The notes under the pieces are model-generated. The model searched no databases, had not been told where the DNA came from, and worked only from the letters and a program-made list of their open reading frames with translations. From Geothrix sp. 21YS21S-2 (GTDB lineage Bacteria; Acidobacteriota; Holophagae; Holophagales; Holophagaceae): a stretch of DNA of 64,000 nucleotides. The stretch spans positions 2,390,001-2,454,000 of the forward strand of contig NZ_CP132910.1 in the NCBI RefSeq assembly GCF_030846775.1, in the 5' to 3' direction. Position 1 is the first letter of the stretch. The number at the start of each line of letters is the position of its first letter. Below, one piece after another: positions 32,923-41,732 of the stretch. A program made the translations under genes and the position numbers.

Positions 32923-33825
32923 ATGCATCGCATCCTCCTCGGGGCTGCCCTGGCCGCAGGCTTGGCCACCGCCCACGCCACCACCCCCCTCACCCATTGC
33001 CTCGTCCACGGCATCTTCAAGCCCGCCCCCGACGCCGTCGGGGAGGGGGCGATCCACCCGCTGCAGCCCCTCCAGCGCCTCGCGTCCCTGGACAAGGGCG
33101 CCTTCCGCATCGTGGCCCAGGACTCGGCCGAAGCCTTTGCATTCCCCATGCTGGCCGCCCCCGGCGCCTCCGGCCCCGCGGACCTGGCCGACCTGGGGGA
33201 GGACACCTTCATCGCCCCCCTGGACCTGACGGGTACCGGGGTCTCCGACCTCGTCTACGCCCGCAAGGGCGCCCCGGGGTGGAAGGTCCTCACCAACGGG
33301 GCCCGCCTCAAGCAGCCCTCCCAGGGCTTCGTGGCCGGCCACTTCGAGAAGGGGGCCGACACCCCGAAATCCGACCTGATACCGGCCGACACCAGCGATC
33401 TCTCGGTGGACCAGGATCTCCTGGCCGCCACGGGCGACTTCCTGGGCAACGGCACCGAGCAGCTGGCCTACACCCGCCCCGGCCAGCACCAGATCTGGAT
33501 CGTCGGCGCCCACGGGGTGACCACCATGAAGGCCGATCTCAAGGGCATCGAACCGGGCGGCCCGGGCGAGAGGAACCACTGGCTGTTCCCCTACAAGGCC
33601 ACCCGGAAGGCGCAGCGCACCCGCCTGGCCTACTACCGCGCGGGAAACGACCACCTCGTCCGGCTGGTGCCCAAGGGCATGGAGTTCGTCCAGGAGAAGG
33701 TCCCCCTCAAAGGGCATTGGGACCGCCTGAACCAGGCCGTGGTCGATTGGCCCCATGCCGCCACCGCTCCATCCTCGTCCTCGTCCTCCACGTCTTCCGA
33801 AGGGAAGGAACCCACGGCCAAGTAA
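32923..33825 (+). CDS. secreted protein with FG-GAP-like repeats
   Basis: 300 residues with a signal peptide (cleavage after AHA, about residue 19). Two segments, LDLTGTGVSDLVYAR (about 103-117) and TGDFLGNGTEQLAYTR (about 171-186), follow the FG-GAP/VCBS pattern of a blade with a calcium-type loop, so a small beta-propeller is likely. The tail is serine-rich (about 287-296) and then charged. It is preceded by a good AAAGGAG site and followed by a strong terminator that separates it from the RiPP-like cassette. Function unknown. Confidence 0.75.
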   Translation: MHRILLGAALAAGLATAHATTPLTHCLVHGIFKPAPDAVGEGAIHPLQPLQRLASLDKGAFRIVAQDSAEAFAFPMLAAPGASGPADLADLGEDTFIAPLDLTGTGVSDLVYARKGAPGWKVLTNGARLKQPSQGFVAGHFEKGADTPKSDLIPADTSDLSVDQDLLAATGDFLGNGTEQLAYTRPGQHQIWIVGAHGVTTMKADLKGIEPGGPGERNHWLFPYKATRKAQRTRLAYYRAGNDHLVRLVPKGMEFVQEKVPLKGHWDRLNQAVVDWPHAATAPSSSSSSTSSEGKEPTAK

Positions 33826-33898: not shown

Positions 33899-34113
33899 AT
33901 ATGTGTATAAACTCTTTTATAATATATATTTAATTCGATTTTTCCACTCAAGTAAATTCGGTCTTGGTCCGATTTGTAGCAATGGGATTCGAGACGTTAA
34001 GTCTGGGCAAAAACACTGTCCCCTCGACCCGCCCCGCGGACGCCGTCCCCGGGCCCTCACCCCATCCGGATCCCCCGGGATCCCAGTGCGGCCTGCGCCG
34101 CGCGGAGCGCACC
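33899..34113 (+). promoter_or_regulatory. AT-rich promoter island before the Cys-repeat peptide
   Basis: About 80 bases (33891-33970) are extremely AT-rich for this genome and hold a perfect TATAAT at 33918-33923. The base pairs where a -35 box should be are poor (TTTTAT), so a sigma-70 call is weak and another factor may be needed. From 33980 the sequence returns to high GC up to the GGAG site of the peptide gene. A reading frame runs through it from 33964, but without a ribosome-binding site or conserved look. Confidence 0.4.
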
Positions 34114-34398
34114 ATGATCACGACCCTCATCGGCATCGCCACCCTCTTCTCCGCGGGCTCCAGCCTGCCCGCCACCGCCGCGCCCACCCTCTCCGCCCGG
34201 GAGATCGCCCCGGCGGGCCAGACCGCCCCGGCGCCGGAACTGGAACAGCGCCGGTGCGGCGGCAGGCGCTGCGCCAGCGTGCCCCGCTGCGGCGGGCGGC
34301 GATGTGCCGGCGTGCCCCGCTGCGGCCGGAGATGCGCGAGCGTGCCCCGCTGCGGACATCGCTGCGCCAGCGTGCCCCGCTGCGGCGGGAGGGGCTAG
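34114..34398 (+). CDS. candidate RiPP precursor: secreted Arg/Cys-repeat peptide
   Basis: 94 residues. A Sec signal peptide (hydrophobic 5-18, likely cut near residue 22-23) is followed by a Pro/Ala-rich spacer, then a basic core from 46 to 94. The core holds nine cysteines (48, 53, 59, 64, 70, 74, 80, 84, 90) in four copies of RCA(S/G)VPRCG separated by GGR, GR or GH. It lies one base before a DUF692 (MNIO) enzyme gene, the arrangement of methanobactin, bufferin and HvfA systems, in which cysteines become copper-binding heterocycles. The signal-peptide precursor plan is like bufferin/HvfA, but the repeat is different. Start is the ATG at 34114 (GGAG seven bases upstream). Modification and metal binding are inferred. 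Confidence 0.8.
   Translation: MITTLIGIATLFSAGSSLPATAAPTLSAREIAPAGQTAPAPELEQRRCGGRRCASVPRCGGRRCAGVPRCGRRCASVPRCGHRCASVPRCGGRG
34278..34385 (+). repeat. 15-bp tandem DNA repeat in the peptide core
   Basis: CGTGCCCCGCTGCGG (encoding VPRCG) occurs identically at 34278, 34311, 34341 and 34371, a period of 33, 30 and 30 bases. The interleaved RCAS/RCAG codons vary more. This points to recent duplication of a 10-11 codon unit. Confidence 0.9.
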
Positions 34399-34399
34399 C

Positions 34400-35227
34400 A
34401 TGGCCTTCTCCGGCGTCGGCCTGGGCCTCCGCCTCCCCCACCTGGAGGCGGTGGCCCGGGAGGCCCCTGACGTCCCCTTCTGGGAAATCGCCCCGGAGAA
34501 CGTCATCGGGGACGGCGGCAGGGTGGCCGCCCTGACCCGGACGATCCTGGCCAGGGACCCTGTGATCTCCCACGGCCTCAGCCTCTCGGTGGGCGGCTTC
34601 GATCCCTTCGACGACGCCTACCTGGCCGACCTGGCGGGCTTCCTCATCGCCTCGGGGAGCCCCTGGCACTCCGAACACCTGTGCTTCACCTCGGTGGACG
34701 GCGCCACCACCCACGAGCTCCTGCCCATGCCCTTCACCCGGGCCTCGGCGCGCCACGCCGCGGCCCGGGCGCGGGAGCTCAAGCCGCGGCTCCCGGTGCC
34801 CTTCCTGCTGGAGAACATCACCTACTACGCCGAGCTGGGGCAGGCGGGGATGGACGAGGCGGCCTTCATCGCCGAGGTCCTCGAGGGCGCCGACGCAGGC
34901 TGGCTCCTGGACATCAACAACGTCTACGTGAACTCCCTGAACTTCGGCTTCGATCCCTACCGCTGGTTCGAGGGGATGCCCCTGCACCGGGTCGCCCAGA
35001 TCCACATCGCCGGCCACGACCGCTACGGCGACCTGGTGGTGGACACCCACGGGGCCCCGGTGGCCGATCCGGTCGTGGACCTCATGCGCTTCGTGCTGCC
35101 CCGCATCGGCCGGCCCGTGCCCGTGCTGCTGGAGCGGGACAACGACATCCCGCCCCTGGCCGAGCTGCTCGCCGAGCGCGCCGCGCTTCAGGAGGCCTAC
35201 GACCAGGCCCTGGCCGCCCATGCCTGA
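34400..35227 (+). CDS. DUF692 multinuclear non-heme iron oxidative enzyme (MNIO, BufB-like)
   Basis: TIM-barrel enzyme of 275 residues. Family members use two or three iron ions to rewrite cysteines of a partner peptide (MbnB, TglH, ChrH, BufB). The expected ligands are in place: His58 (ISHG), His90 and His93 (HSEH), Glu138 (LLENI), Asp171 with Asn173/174 (LDINN), His202 and His206 (IHIAGH), His217 (DTHG) and Glu245 (LLERD). It starts at the ATG 34400, one base after the peptide stop, with GGGAGG upstream. The next gene, its DUF2063 partner, overlaps by eight bases. Acts in the cytoplasm before export of the peptide, by analogy. Confidence 0.92.
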   Translation: MAFSGVGLGLRLPHLEAVAREAPDVPFWEIAPENVIGDGGRVAALTRTILARDPVISHGLSLSVGGFDPFDDAYLADLAGFLIASGSPWHSEHLCFTSVDGATTHELLPMPFTRASARHAAARARELKPRLPVPFLLENITYYAELGQAGMDEAAFIAEVLEGADAGWLLDINNVYVNSLNFGFDPYRWFEGMPLHRVAQIHIAGHDRYGDLVVDTHGAPVADPVVDLMRFVLPRIGRPVPVLLERDNDIPPLAELLAERAALQEAYDQALAAHA

Positions 35228-35996
35228 CGCCGTCCTGGCCCTGCAGCGCAGCCTCGCGGCCCTGGCCCTGGATCCCGACGCCGCCGCCTTCGAGGCCGAC
35301 CCGGGCGCCTTCGCCGCGGCCCGGGGCCTGCCGGAGGGGGACCAGGCCGCCTTCCGGCGCTACCGCGACCGGCTCCTGTACTACCGGGACGCCGTGCGGG
35401 AGGACATCTGCGAACCCGTCGACCAGGACTTCCCCCTCACCCGGACCCTGCTCGAGGGGGCCGGGGCGTGGGGAGCGTGCCGCGCCGGCTTCCTTTCCAG
35501 CCGGACCTTCCGGAGCCCCTTCTACCGGGACATCTCCGCCACGTTCCTGGGCTGGCTGGCCACCTCGGCCTGGGGCCGGGACCGGTGGCCCTTCCTCCTG
35601 GAACTGGCCCACTTCGAGCTGGTCAGGCAACTGGTGGAGCACCTCCCCGACGCGGCCCCCCCCGCGGGCCTGCGCGCCGTGCCCCGCCCCGGAGACCTCC
35701 TGGTGCTGGCGCCCTCCACCCAGGTTCTGGCCTACGCGTACCGCGTCCACGAGGCCACCTGGGAGGCGCCCGCGCCCGAGCCCGGGGCCTGCCGCCTCCT
35801 GGCCAGCCGGGACGCGCAAGGCTTCATCCAGTGGCGGGAACTGACGGAGGCCGCGGCCTGCCTCCTGGCGCGGGCCCGGGGCGCCTCCCTGGCGGCCGTG
35901 GCGGAGGAGCTCGGGCTGGCGGACCTGCCCGGGCTCCTGTCCTTCCTGGCCGGCCTGCGGGAGGCGGGGGCCGTGCTGGGCTTCAGGGAAGCCTGA
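35220..35996 (+). CDS. DUF2063 partner protein (BufC/HvfC-like)
   Basis: 258 residues. The N-terminal half (about 1-95) has the DUF2063 pattern: an ALALDPDAAAF helix, YRDRLLYYRDAVREDI, then DFPLTRTLLEG. The C-terminal half (about 95-258) has alternating helices and strands typical of the partner that recognises the peptide leader. It overlaps the MNIO gene by eight bases, the standard BufB-BufC pairing. No transporter, DoxX-like BufD or regulator follows, as the next gene (lysS) is convergent six bases away. Confidence 0.88.
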   Translation: MPDAVLALQRSLAALALDPDAAAFEADPGAFAAARGLPEGDQAAFRRYRDRLLYYRDAVREDICEPVDQDFPLTRTLLEGAGAWGACRAGFLSSRTFRSPFYRDISATFLGWLATSAWGRDRWPFLLELAHFELVRQLVEHLPDAAPPAGLRAVPRPGDLLVLAPSTQVLAYAYRVHEATWEAPAPEPGACRLLASRDAQGFIQWRELTEAAACLLARARGASLAAVAEELGLADLPGLLSFLAGLREAGAVLGFREA

Positions 35997-38057: not shown

Positions 38058-38088
38058 GGAGGACCTCGGAGTCAGGCCTCCAGTATAG

Positions 38089-39252
38089 TCAGTCCCCCTT
38101 CACCGCCCGGCCGCAGTACCCCATGCCCAGGAACGGGGTGAAGAGGAACTCGAACCCGTCCCCGACCCTGCCGGTGGCCAGCAGCCCCAGGAAGGCCCGC
38201 GAGAGGATCCGGGGGCGCACGCCCCGCAGCGTGTCGACGGCCAGCCCGTGGCGGCCGCAGATGCCGCGCAGCTCCGAGGGCTTGAGGAACAGGTGGTACA
38301 CGTGCATGTGCTCCGGCGTGTTCCGCACGAAGAGCCGCACCCCCTGGATGGCCACGAGGCCGGCCAGCGGGGTCCGGTTGAAGGTGTGGAAATAGAACCA
38401 CCCGCCCGGCTTCAGGACCCGGGCCGCCTCCCGGATCACCGCGTCCCGTTCCTCGAGGTGCTCGAGGAAATCCATCATGCACACCACGTCGAAGCGCCCG
38501 TCGGGGAAGGCCAGGCTCCGGGCGTCCATGGGGAGGTAGGCCACGGTCCCGGTGGGGTCGTGCCCGCGGGCCACGGCCAGGCTCTCCCCGGACAGATCGA
38601 TGCCCGTGACCCGGTGGCCCGCCGCCGCCAGGGGGTTGGCCAGGAACCCCGCCCCGCAGGCCACGTCCAGGACGTGCGAGGCCGCGGGCAGCTCCCCGAG
38701 GATCCAGGCGGTGCGCAGGCGGGACTCCGCCCGCAGGAGGGCCACGGGATCGTCGTCGGCCTCGTACCAGCGCTCCCCCAGGCTGTCGTAGACGCGATTG
38801 TCGATCTCCGGCCGGCGCCGCCGGCCCGCCCCCGCCAGGGCCTGCACCACGAGGAAGGCGCCCACGAGCGCGACCTGGAGGCCCAGCGCCCCCCGGGGGC
38901 CGCCGGCCACCCACACCCAGGCGGTGGCCAGCAGGACCAGGGGGTGCAGGATGAACAGCACGGCGTGCACCCAGTGCTCCCAGGCCGTGCACAGGCGCTG
39001 GTGGACGAACTCGTCCTTGGTGATCAGCAGGCAGGAGAAGGCCGCCAGCGCCCCGTAGGCGCGAAGGTGACCCCCGGTCGGCGCCAGGACCAGCGGCAGC
39101 GTCAGGCACGCCAGGAACACGGCGGTATCCAGCAGGTGGCCCGCCCATTCCCACCGGGGCACGTCCCGCCACCGGTGGAAACCGAACTCGTCCACGCCCA
39201 TGGTCAGCCCCTGCAGGGCGAAGGGGAGCAGGGCCAGGGCCGGCGCGCTCAC
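38089..39252 (-). CDS. SAM methyltransferase with N-terminal membrane domain
   Basis: 387 residues joining two parts. Residues 1-135 form about four membrane helices, an unrecognised membrane domain with GVDEFGFHRW and FLVVQALAG. Residues 150-387 are a class I SAM methyltransferase of UbiG/type-11 kind, with motif I LDVACGAGFLANPL (about 193-206), an acidic GIDLS, and FDVVCMMDFLEHLEERDAV. The start is GTG at 39252, overlapping the stop of the type III polyketide synthase (GTGA), so the two are translationally coupled. It probably methylates a lipophilic phenol, pyrone or quinone made by that enzyme at the membrane. Confidence 0.85.
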   Translation of the reverse strand: MSAPALALLPFALQGLTMGVDEFGFHRWRDVPRWEWAGHLLDTAVFLACLTLPLVLAPTGGHLRAYGALAAFSCLLITKDEFVHQRLCTAWEHWVHAVLFILHPLVLLATAWVWVAGGPRGALGLQVALVGAFLVVQALAGAGRRRRPEIDNRVYDSLGERWYEADDDPVALLRAESRLRTAWILGELPAASHVLDVACGAGFLANPLAAAGHRVTGIDLSGESLAVARGHDPTGTVAYLPMDARSLAFPDGRFDVVCMMDFLEHLEERDAVIREAARVLKPGGWFYFHTFNRTPLAGLVAIQGVRLFVRNTPEHMHVYHLFLKPSELRGICGRHGLAVDTLRGVRPRILSRAFLGLLATGRVGDGFEFLFTPFLGMGYCGRAVKGD

Positions 39253-40394
39253 CCCGCCTTCCGGAGGAGGGCGCCCGCGATGGTGAGCCCGGGCCCGAAG
39301 GCCAGGGAGACGACGAGGGTCCCGGGCGCCACGGCGGCGTCGGCCAGGATGGCCTGCCACACGTGGGGCAGGGTCGCCGAGGACATGTTCCCGTGGTCGC
39401 GAAGGATGGCGTTGCTGGCCTCCACTTGCGCGGGGCGCAGGCCCAGGTGCTCGGCGAGTTCGTCGATGATCCGGGGGCCCCCGGGGTGGATGGCGAAGAC
39501 CGCGTCCCGGAAAAGAGCTCCGGCCGTGCGGCCCGCGCCCGCCGCCAGATCGTCCAGGAAGGGGCCGAGGGCCGCGCGGATGTAGTCCGGCACCTTGCGG
39601 CTCAGGGTCATCTGCATGCCGGAATCGGAGACCATCCAGGTCATGGCGTCCGTGGTCTCCGGCGCGATCTCCTCGCGGGTGGCCAGGAGCTCGAGACCGG
39701 GCCCCTCCGCCCGGGAGACGGAGTAGCGGATCGCGCCGTCGGCGAACAGGGTCTGCACCACCAGCTGCTCGGGCTGGTGCTGGGCGGGATCCATGTGCAG
39801 CGTGCACAGCTCGGTGTGGACCACGTCCACCCTGGCCTTCCCCCGCTCCAGGAGCCCCGCCGCCAGCCGGATGGCTGGCATCGCGGCGTAGCAGCCCATG
39901 TGGTAGGCGTGGATCACCTCCGTGGAGCGTCCCCACCCGCGGTGCGCCACCAGGCGCTGGGCGCCGCTGGGGGAGACGTAGCCCGTGCAGGTGACGTGCA
40001 TGATCACCGGCGGCGGCTCCAGCTCGTCGGTGTAGAAGGATTCGAAGACGCGCCCGCACACCTCCCCGTAGAACCGGCTCCGCTCCCCGCAGGGCCTGCC
40101 CGAGGGGAATTCGTTCAGCCGGAAGATCCGCATGCGGTCCCAGTCGGTGTGGGTGAAATCGTCCAGGAAGGCGCCCCGGGCGCTGATGCGGTCGGTGCTG
40201 CACCCGAAGCGAAGCACCAGCTTTTTCAGCTTCCGGGTCAGCGCCTCCCGCGCCTCCTCCGAGTCCGGGCGCTGGAGCGTGAGTTCCGCCCGGGCGTGGG
40301 CCGCGGCGATCCACTCCAGGATGTCCCCCTGGGCGGCCTGGTGCGTGGGAGACTGATTCTGGAAACCCTGGAGAAGGATCGGGAGCTGGGTCAT
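39249..40394 (-). CDS. type III polyketide synthase (chalcone/stilbene synthase-like)
   Basis: Iterative condensing enzyme of 381 residues that acts on acyl-CoA starters and malonyl-CoA without a carrier protein. The triad is complete: Cys168 in HAYHMGCYAAMPAIR, His303 in FAIHPGGPRIID and Asn336 in RDHGNMSSAT. The LFADGAIRYSV segment is also typical. Likely products are alkyl-resorcinols or alkyl-pyrones, with the coupled methyltransferase as tailoring enzyme. I start at the ATG 40394; an ATG five codons upstream (40409) is possible. Neither has a strong ribosome-binding site. AT-rich DNA upstream should hold the promoter. Confidence 0.9.
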   Translation of the reverse strand: MTQLPILLQGFQNQSPTHQAAQGDILEWIAAAHARAELTLQRPDSEEAREALTRKLKKLVLRFGCSTDRISARGAFLDDFTHTDWDRMRIFRLNEFPSGRPCGERSRFYGEVCGRVFESFYTDELEPPPVIMHVTCTGYVSPSGAQRLVAHRGWGRSTEVIHAYHMGCYAAMPAIRLAAGLLERGKARVDVVHTELCTLHMDPAQHQPEQLVVQTLFADGAIRYSVSRAEGPGLELLATREEIAPETTDAMTWMVSDSGMQMTLSRKVPDYIRAALGPFLDDLAAGAGRTAGALFRDAVFAIHPGGPRIIDELAEHLGLRPAQVEASNAILRDHGNMSSATLPHVWQAILADAAVAPGTLVVSLAFGPGLTIAGALLRKAG

Positions 40395-40760
40395 GGAAGC
40401 CTGCCTCATGGAATTCAAGCGCCTGCCGGTCGGGGAAAGGGAATGCCCAGGATGGGCATGCACGCCCAGGTCAATAATGGGCCTGTCCTGAAAAATTGCT
40501 CTTTTTTTAACAATCAAAGCGGGGCCCGGAAGCCGCCCGCCCCGGGGATGTCCGTCAGGCCCTACATTCCCAGCGCTTGCGTCCACTCGTAAGATTCCGC
40601 GAGACCCCTCAACCGGTCTCAGCTCCCGGGCCGGGCCGCCCAGGCGCCTGCGCGAATATGCCGCTATCTCCCGGCCCGGGGCCTGCCGATAGTCCAACCA
40701 GGAGTCGAGGCCAGCTCGCGTGGGACCCGGACTCTTCGCTGACTTGCCGATGGAGATGCC
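40395..40760. other. divergent intergenic region with AT-rich stretch and inverted repeat
   Basis: 366 bases between the minus-strand polyketide synthase and the plus-strand Sel1 gene, with no gene I can support. A stretch at about 40490-40520 is AT-rich (including TTTTTTTAACAATC) and is the likely promoter for the polyketide operon. An 11-bp inverted repeat CCCGGGCCGGG/CCCGGCCCGGG at 40625-40635 and 40670-40680 could form a hairpin or operator for the Sel1 gene. Confidence 0.5.
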
Positions 40761-41501
40761 ATGCAGATGCGGGTGCGGTCCCTGTTCCTTCCCTGCCTGC
40801 CTTTCTGCCTCCTGGTGGCCGGTCCCGTGACGCCGTCCTCCCGGCAGAACGGGGCCGGCCCCATTCCCCTCACGCGGGTGACGGGGGGCGCGCCCGCTCC
40901 CTCCCTTGCGTTCCTCACCTGCCTGGGCGCCGCGGAGCGCGGGGACACCGAGGCCCAGGCCCGGGTCGCCTCCATGTTCTTCCTGGGCGAAGGCGTTCCG
41001 GCCGATGTGCGGGAGGCCGTGGCCTGGTATCTCCGGGCCGCGGCGGGGGGAGATGCGAAATCCATGATGATCCTCGGCATGATGCACGAGGATGGCGACG
41101 GCGTGTCCCGCGACCCCGACCAGGCCCTCCGGTATTTCGTCATGGCCGCCCAGCGCGGGGACCTGGACGCCCAGGTCAAGCTCGGCGTGAAGTACTACCT
41201 GGGCGAGGGCGTGCCCAGGGACCTGCAGGAGGCCCGCACCTGGCTCCAACGGGCCGCCGTCCAGGGCGATGCCTACGCCCAGGGCTGCCTGGGGCTCATG
41301 TACGCCGTGGGGGAGGGGGTTCCCCGGGACCCCACGGAAGCCTACGCCTGGCTCACGCGCGCCGAGGCCGGCGGGAACCGCCAGGTCGCCCAGCCCCTGG
41401 AGACCCTCAAGCGGGATCTCACGCCGGACCAGCTCGAGCAGGGCCGGCGGCGGGCGGAGGCACTCGGGGCGGGCCGCCCCGCGGAGACGGTGGCAAGATA
41501 G
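40761..41501 (+). CDS. secreted Sel1-repeat protein
   Basis: 246 residues with an N-terminal signal-like hydrophobic stretch (about 8-22). It then has four Sel1 (TPR-like) repeats of about 36 residues, each with the A-x3-LG-x8-G-V-x3-D-x2-A-x2-W pattern, such as ASMFFLGEGVPADVREAVAWYLRAA near 67-92. The repeats make a solenoid for protein contacts. The start ATG has GGAG six bases upstream. The partner is unknown. Confidence 0.8.
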   Translation: MQMRVRSLFLPCLPFCLLVAGPVTPSSRQNGAGPIPLTRVTGGAPAPSLAFLTCLGAAERGDTEAQARVASMFFLGEGVPADVREAVAWYLRAAAGGDAKSMMILGMMHEDGDGVSRDPDQALRYFVMAAQRGDLDAQVKLGVKYYLGEGVPRDLQEARTWLQRAAVQGDAYAQGCLGLMYAVGEGVPRDPTEAYAWLTRAEAGGNRQVAQPLETLKRDLTPDQLEQGRRRAEALGAGRPAETVAR

Positions 41502-41519
41502 ATCCTGTCGGAGGCGGCC

Positions 41520-41732
41520 TTGCTGGACACCCTCTATTTCATCCTCGTCGTCATCGTCTTCTTCGGGCTCGTGCTGCACGCCATCCACCAGGAGGAACGG
41601 CGGAAGACCGACCGCCGCCAGGAGGATCGCCCCGTCGCCGTCGAGCGCAGGATCGGGGACCGGCGCGGCAATTCGGCCCTCGCCTACCTTGCGTGGGGCC
41701 TGCGCACCCGGTGGCGCAGGCTCACCCGGTAA
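41520..41732 (+). CDS. small single-helix membrane protein
   Basis: 70 residues from a TTG start with GGAGG six bases upstream. One membrane helix (about 4-20) is followed by a strongly basic, Arg-rich cytoplasmic tail. It begins 18 bases after the Sel1 gene and probably shares its transcript. The last 11 bases overlap the convergent LysE gene. Family not recognised. Confidence 0.5.
   Translation: MLDTLYFILVVIVFFGLVLHAIHQEERRKTDRRQEDRPVAVERRIGDRRGNSALAYLAWGLRTRWRRLTR

Follow-up and report, generated by a model that had tools for sequence, protein, structure and literature searches.

A captophorin-type MNIO cassette whose precursor appears to have exchanged its core for arginine/cysteine repeats

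Cassette layout and promoter region

The window analysed here, a stretch of 64,000 nucleotides from a genome assembled as one contig of 5.25 Mb, carries a compact three-gene cassette in which a RiPP precursor gene is followed by genes encoding an MNIO oxidase and a DUF2063 partner (Table 1). A GGAG Shine-Dalgarno-like site lies 5' of the precursor ATG. The sequence-only reading of this DNA had described a one-base gap between the precursor and MNIO genes and an eight-base overlap between the MNIO and DUF2063 genes, and the coordinates agree with both exactly. Rereading of the precursor frame likewise bore out its account of a 94-residue peptide with nine Cys and four RCA(S/G)VPRCG units, and added one leading RRCGG. 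Neither a copper gene nor a DoxX gene adjoins the cassette in the window.

Table 1. Features of the Arg/Cys cassette and its upstream region (positions in the window)
Feature	Position	Strand	Remarks
Candidate operator/regulatory dyad	34004..34022	+	TGGGCAAAAACACTGTCCC; genus consensus TGGACAAAAACCCTGTCCC = GGACA-N7-TGTCC; five aligned upstream regions
RiPP precursor, 94 aa, 9 Cys	34114..34398	+	ATG 34114; stop ends 34398
MNIO/DUF692 oxidase, 275 aa, HvfB/FonB-related, TIM barrel	34400..35227	+	ATG 34400
DUF2063 + NGO1945_C partner, 258 aa, PME-type 1, HvfC-like, with RRE-type domain	35220..35996	+	ATG 35220

A genome-wide scan allowing up to two mismatches found the dyad TGGACAAAAACCCTGTCCC as a single copy per genome, at this cassette only, in four of the six genomes of the source genus, and this palindromic GGACA-N7-TGTCC element may be the operator of the cassette. 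A search of the 5' leader for an RNA element gave no Rfam match over threshold, and its folding was not unusual.

Distribution and genomic neighbourhood

The Arg/Cys precursor is present in five of the six genomes (one per species) of the source genus, namely those of the window, G001, G002, G003 and G004. It is complete in the window, G001 and G002, and the G003 and G004 copies break off within the repeat where their contigs stop, G003 after ...EQRRC and G004 after ...GGRRCAS. The sixth genome, G005, gave no Arg/Cys precursor match and has a CKG-type MNIO locus. The order precursor-MNIO-DUF2063 is kept at one syntenic place in the genus, flanked by accC plus a gene for a 300-aa protein and by lysS where the contigs permit reading. 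The possibility, raised in the sequence-only reading, that the peptide frame is not conserved went the other way, as the frame persists in five species. Relatives have its leader and its repeat, with synonymous drift between them, and the precursor frame is a genuine gene; a chance or spurious open reading frame is ruled out by its presence in five species and by a core omega of about 0.3.

Beyond the genus, the other 71 of the 77 family genomes yielded no Arg/Cys precursor, and stricter pattern searches had no match among 396 genomes of the source phylum, the genus itself aside, or among 398 genomes from the phylum to which a Microbulbifer genome belongs. The peptide had no tblastn match against plasmids, where the low-complexity filter may hide weak ones, and none among the matches listed from a loose-pattern contig scan has an MNIO nearby, which is not proof of absence; restriction to the genus is a statement about the sampled genomes. 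Matches of the family-wide profile in G075 and G076 (L231:1353-1629 and L230:1524-2358) were discarded, as they fall in one frame of an unrelated, dispersed CGYGFASVPSC tandem DNA repeat, probably a minisatellite, that is superficially RCASVPRC-like. At least one MNIO occurs in 46 of the 77 family genomes; the source genome has two further MNIO cassettes, and G001 has a single MNIO.

A place in the cassette as its fourth gene was weighed for the secreted 300-aa protein (32923-33825) and set aside, because its gene stands apart in G005, where the 11.5-kb contig bearing it has no accC, MNIO or lysS matches, and because a terminator-like hairpin separates that gene from the precursor gene. The protein has no confident Pfam match, was found in this genus only and adjoins the cassette in five species. 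On the other side of the cassette, the minus strand of the window (38072-41588) contains a type III polyketide synthase-like frame of the chalcone synthase family (39249-41588) with a methyltransferase-like frame downstream.

Precursor leader, core and selection

The precursor consists of a signal-like leader (residues ~1-23), a spacer and an Arg/Cys/Pro core that starts at about Cys48. By sequence inspection, residues 2-15 are hydrophobic and are followed by an Ala-rich region. The leader motif is MITxLIGxATLFxAGS, and a Lys in the n-region is present in the G002 and G004 precursors and in none of the window, G001 and G003 copies. No Pfam or NCBIfam model matched the precursor, with Pfam searched to E=1 and DUF2282 included, so profile-based surveys of captophorins may miss the Arg/Cys type. 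AlphaFold gave no confident fold for the precursor (pLDDT 46).

The mature part of the Arg/Cys precursors contains 13-15 Arg and 0-1 Lys, with a pI of ~10.4-11.2. Among the 27 Cys contexts of these cores, the residue at -1 is Arg in 23 and that at +1 is Gly or Ala in all, with Pro at -2 in 11 and Arg at +2 in eight, and two distinct contexts, PRCG and RRCA, can be recognised. An acidic residue at -3 occurs only once in the 27, compared with 144 of 219 contexts in xCG cores. The DNA of the core is organised as a tandem repeat of 30 bp. When the window is compared with G002, 26 core codons are identical, 12 differ synonymously and 10 non-synonymously. By the Nei-Gojobori method, core omega is 0.29 against G002 and 0.35 against G001 (0.15 and 0.39, respectively, for the MNIO gene), and the Pro-Arg-Cys and Arg-Arg-Cys positions stay constant while their Arg codons switch between CGN and AGR. 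The core is under purifying selection.

The sequence-only reading had called the cationic core unusual for a metal-sequestering peptide. The core is indeed strongly positive, but it is less exceptional than stated, since related MNIO precursors are net positive too: the median net charge per 100 aa is +8 for xCG precursors and +12 for CKG types, compared with +18 in the present case. Moreover, this charge need not argue against metal binding, because up to nine acidic thiols after modification could offset much of it. The xCG relatives have a median of 21 Lys and no Arg, and the xCG paralogues in the source genome have Lys and little or no Arg. As these relatives are Lys-rich without Arg, the Arg content of the core is not due to base composition but selected.

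Shared descent with the HvfA-like xCG group

At the family loci analysed, nearly all precursors immediately 5' of an MNIO are HvfA-like, with a leader such as MITKLIGAATLFAAGSL and, after it, Lys/Asp/Glu-rich [D/E]GSCGK repeats. The Arg/Cys leaders are identical to xCG leaders at 11-14 of the first 16 residues, and their mean alignment score is 61.2 to xCG leaders, compared with 23.6 (maximum 26.0) to shuffled xCG leaders and 19.9 to CKG-type leaders of other families. In addition, an HMM built from the three complete Arg/Cys precursors matches the leaders of the two paralogous precursors in the source genome (E ~2e-4), each of which has its own MNIO and DUF2063. In a tree of 84 MNIOs, the enzymes of the Arg/Cys cassettes form one clade (100/99) inside the family xCG clade (100/99), with CKG enzymes elsewhere; the exact place of the clade within the xCG group has a support of 92/16, which is weak. 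The family tree to which the sequence-only reading had looked for the placement of the MNIO thus puts it among enzymes of HvfA-like xCG precursors.

Leader homology and the nested MNIO tree together indicate that leader and enzyme were inherited and the core was replaced, a Lys/Asp-rich [D/E]GSCG core having apparently given way to a Lys-free R-C-[G/A] core with Pro at -2. The earlier claim that the precursor is unlike HvfA therefore stands for the core, which is not EGKCG, but fails if taken to mean that it is unrelated to HvfA-like precursors, since leader and enzyme descend from the xCG group. Common descent with the Oxazolin/Buf_EGKCG family is found for the local xCG group, the link to HvfABC of Haemophilus being by profile and fold (3BWW) only. 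The repeated EGKCG motif of that family is absent from the core, which reads RCAxVPRCG, has no Lys and almost no acid at -3. The gene content, comprising an MNIO, a DUF2063/PME1 partner and a Cys-rich precursor, is that of a captophorin cassette. On sequence grounds, gene content and descent thus place the cassette among the captophorins, without the core motif that defines the EGKCG family.

A different departure from the common layout is seen in a hybrid cassette (G000:C1, about 529-532 kb, L013 and L027; also L221:1316-3355) that joins an HvfA-like precursor (...GACGAGSCG...), a radical SAM/SPASM protein, an MNIO and a DUF2063 protein. The radical SAM-MNIO pair is seen again in a second genus, with the two MNIOs as sister enzymes (99/96); the radical SAM protein scores 111 bits against SbtM (TIGR04082; cut-off 350). 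Joint modification of Cys-Gly peptides by the radical SAM protein and the MNIO is possible in this hybrid. Separately, locus L198 (G320:C4:24000-29800) holds an MNIO precursor with a long run of CKGEKAS repeats and more than 15 Cys, an extreme of the Cys-Lys type.

The MNIO, its partner and the substrate rules of FonBC

The MNIO matches PF05114 with 284 bits (E=1e-84; cut-off 25), and its AlphaFold model (pLDDT 93.7) has 3BWW as its best structural match (E=4.9e-23), with TglH and MbnB also among the best. The nine iron-ligand positions of TglH (PMC10880893) correspond to H58, H93, E138, D171, N174, H202, D215, H217 and E245, and these residues and the proposed catalytic Asp, D247, are invariant in a 36-row alignment of relatives, in keeping with the sequence-only reading, which had seen all expected metal ligands in the enzyme. 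Profile, TIM-barrel fold and iron ligands all mark the protein as an MNIO. Its score against the HvfB model NF003818 is 253 bits, under the equivalog cut-off of 360. The partner matches PF09836 (DUF2063, 37.3 bits) and PF22106 (NGO1945_C, 32.3 bits), both over the gathering cut-off, and scores 94.5 bits against the HvfC model NF050145, under its cut-off of 142.

According to Gadgil et al. (PMC13097082), FonBC acts on EGKCG repeats and makes 5-thiooxazoles; it accepts Arg at -1, allows only Ala to replace Gly at +1, and tolerates neither Pro at any place of the repeat nor Arg at position 1 (+2/-3). In the FonB model given there, the substrate acid sits between Arg15 and Arg16, and the R16A variant is less able to handle charged residues at that place. 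The second Arg of the corresponding GxGxRR motif is retained in 38 of 42 xCG-labelled enzymes and is replaced in the Arg/Cys clade (L/L/P/L; Leu12 in the window MNIO), whereas the FonB-Arg15 position remains Arg (R11) and is invariant in the 36-row alignment. Leu12 was equated with FonB-Arg16 from the GxGxRR motif and 3BWW (GYRR), not from the FonB sequence. Loss of the substrate acid and loss of its Arg partner in the enzyme thus appear to co-vary, and since this co-variation is confined to one clade, it counts as one evolutionary event. The post-catalytic site of FonB-Phe250 was also tried as a discriminator and dropped, being Asn in all Arg/Cys and most xCG enzymes.

Measured against these FonBC rules, the Arg/Cys core conforms in its Arg at -1 and Gly/Ala at +1 and breaks them with Pro at -2 and with Arg at +2. 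Consequently, either the Arg/Cys enzyme must tolerate what FonBC rejects, or only some of the Cys are modified. As a natural enzyme-substrate pair that breaks two of these published rules, the cassette makes them directly testable.

Proposed function

We consider it likely, with a probability of roughly 0.7, that this is a captophorin-type (oxazolin/HvfABC-like) cassette with a swapped core, in which Cys would be converted to 5-thiooxazoles and the peptide exported through Sec for Cu(I) buffering. Transcription would proceed from the promoter region carrying the GGACA-N7-TGTCC dyad, to which a regulatory role is provisionally assigned. By analogy with HvfC and MbnC, the DUF2063/RRE partner would bind the signal-peptide leader, and the MNIO, like its homologues, would oxidise core Cys in Arg-Cys-(Gly/Ala) to 5-thiooxazoles, each with the loss of four H, up to nine in number and about -36 Da in all. 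The leader points to export of the modified peptide by the Sec pathway, after which the thiooxazole thiolates, as in homologous systems, would bind Cu(I) and buffer a surplus of copper, either periplasmic or extracellular. Copper is our best guess for the metal and the most likely ligand partner of the modified peptide. That the peptide is an MNIO substrate, as the sequence-only reading proposed, is supported by its adjacency to the enzyme wherever the contig shows it, by leader homology and by enzyme-substrate co-variation. According to PMC13097082, all characterised MNIO-PME1 pairs make 5-thiooxazole and the products are generally Cu-binding. However, several points speak against this reading, namely the FonBC-forbidden Pro at -2 and Arg at +2, the retained R11, the lack of a neighbouring copper gene or DoxX, and HvfB and HvfC scores below cut-off.

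Part of this evidence would suit a different or partial modification, for instance 5-thiooxazoles formed only at PRCG or only at RRCA with the remaining Cys in disulfides, or another oxidation of Cys, with a product that handles another metal or serves as a cationic, secreted peptide. The two residues disallowed for FonBC (PMC13097082), the pair of distinct Cys contexts and the selected Arg content of a nearly Lys-free core (13-15 Arg) all favour it. Nevertheless, it is unlikely, since the enzyme lies inside the xCG/HvfB-like group with catalytic Asp and ligands intact, the characterised PME1-paired MNIOs described in the same paper all yield 5-thiooxazole, and the FonBC rules are those of one enzyme. 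More speculative, and rather improbable, is the idea that the core swap altered the activity of the enzyme, such that a PME1-paired MNIO working on Pro-Arg-Cys and Arg-Arg-Cys repeats, which are disallowed for FonBC, gives a poly-Arg, poly-thiooxazole peptide; its guanidinium/thiolate pairs would form a material that differs from the Lys/acid captophorins and binds surfaces or a metal, which may not be copper. It is very improbable that the peptide stays unmodified, whether as a metallothionein-like or structural secreted peptide or as a non-functional expanded repeat beside an MNIO serving paralogous precursors: although 30-bp tandem repeats readily expand, cross-talk with the two other HvfA-like precursors of the genome is conceivable through their common leader and AlphaFold finds no confident fold, the low core omega, the Cys and Arg-Cys contexts held constant through synonymous change and the retention in five species argue otherwise, as do the standing of the Arg/Cys-cassette enzyme as the sole MNIO of G001 and the separate MNIO and DUF2063 of each of the two source-genome paralogues.

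Collectively, the favoured reading of a captophorin-type cassette with a swapped core presents a natural experiment within one genus, in which a RiPP cassette would change its product and keep its leader and MNIO lineage, with the loss of the acid from the substrate accompanied by a change at a single pocket residue, the equivalent of FonB-Arg16.

Comparison with known systems

Captophorins are marked by the conversion of Cys to 5-thiooxazole (-4 Da, ~305 nm) and by copper binding or a role in copper/oxidative stress. Oxazolin (HvfABC, Haemophilus influenzae), fontiphorin (FonABC) and bulbicupramide (MmrABC) are captophorins with Lys-Cys EGKCG repeats. The cassette described here shares with them the order of a precursor (here with a putative Sec-type leader), an MNIO and a DUF2063/RRE partner, repeated basic-Cys-small dyads and an enzyme group, the last by HvfB profile (253 bits) and 3BWW fold. 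It differs in having R-C-(G/A) with Pro at -2, almost no acid and no Lys in place of their E-G-K-C-G, Leu12 for the second Arg, and no DoxX gene.

The bufferins Buf1 (DUF2282) and Buf2 (Buf_6/12Cys; Cys-Lys) also have an MNIO and DUF2063; they use a Sec signal as RiPP leader, and their product is a copper-related 5-thiooxazole, features that are predicted for the present cassette. However, the precursor here lacks a DUF2282 match, as the sequence-only reading had anticipated, and carries nine Cys in tandem repeats compared with the four conserved Cys of DUF2282. Methanobactin is made by an MbnB/MbnC pair from a short MbnA without a Sec signal, and MbnB-type products are oxazolone-thioamides. 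The present cassette resembles it in MNIO fold, iron ligands and copper as the likely metal, but its partner is DUF2063 rather than MbnC, its leader has a putative Sec-type signal, and its MNIO scores only 26.5 bits against the MbnB model (cut-off 325), so that the earlier view of the cassette as not methanobactin-like is upheld.

According to Antoine et al. (PMC12452194), the MNIOs of bufferins and EGKCG types share one similarity cluster. Precursors are sorted there into Buf1, Buf2, Buf_EGKCG, CxxxxC and small groups termed adjamnio, and hundreds of signal-peptide ORFs with 1-18 Cys are left unclassified. An Arg-Cys/Pro precursor group was not found in the parts of that study and of PMC13097082 that were consulted.

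Unlike here, Cys comes before Lys in CKG-type precursors from other families, whose enzymes group apart and have EWD in place of ERD. Also close are the HvfA-like xCG precursors of the same family (L010, L011, L008, L147-L183), which have the homologous leader MITKLIGAATLFAAGS, the same gene order and an MNIO 62-72% identical; their cores, in contrast, are Lys/Asp/Glu-rich [D/E]GSCGK repeats with 4-6 Cys in the listed examples and little or no Arg, whereas the Arg/Cys core has nine Cys and 13-15 Arg.
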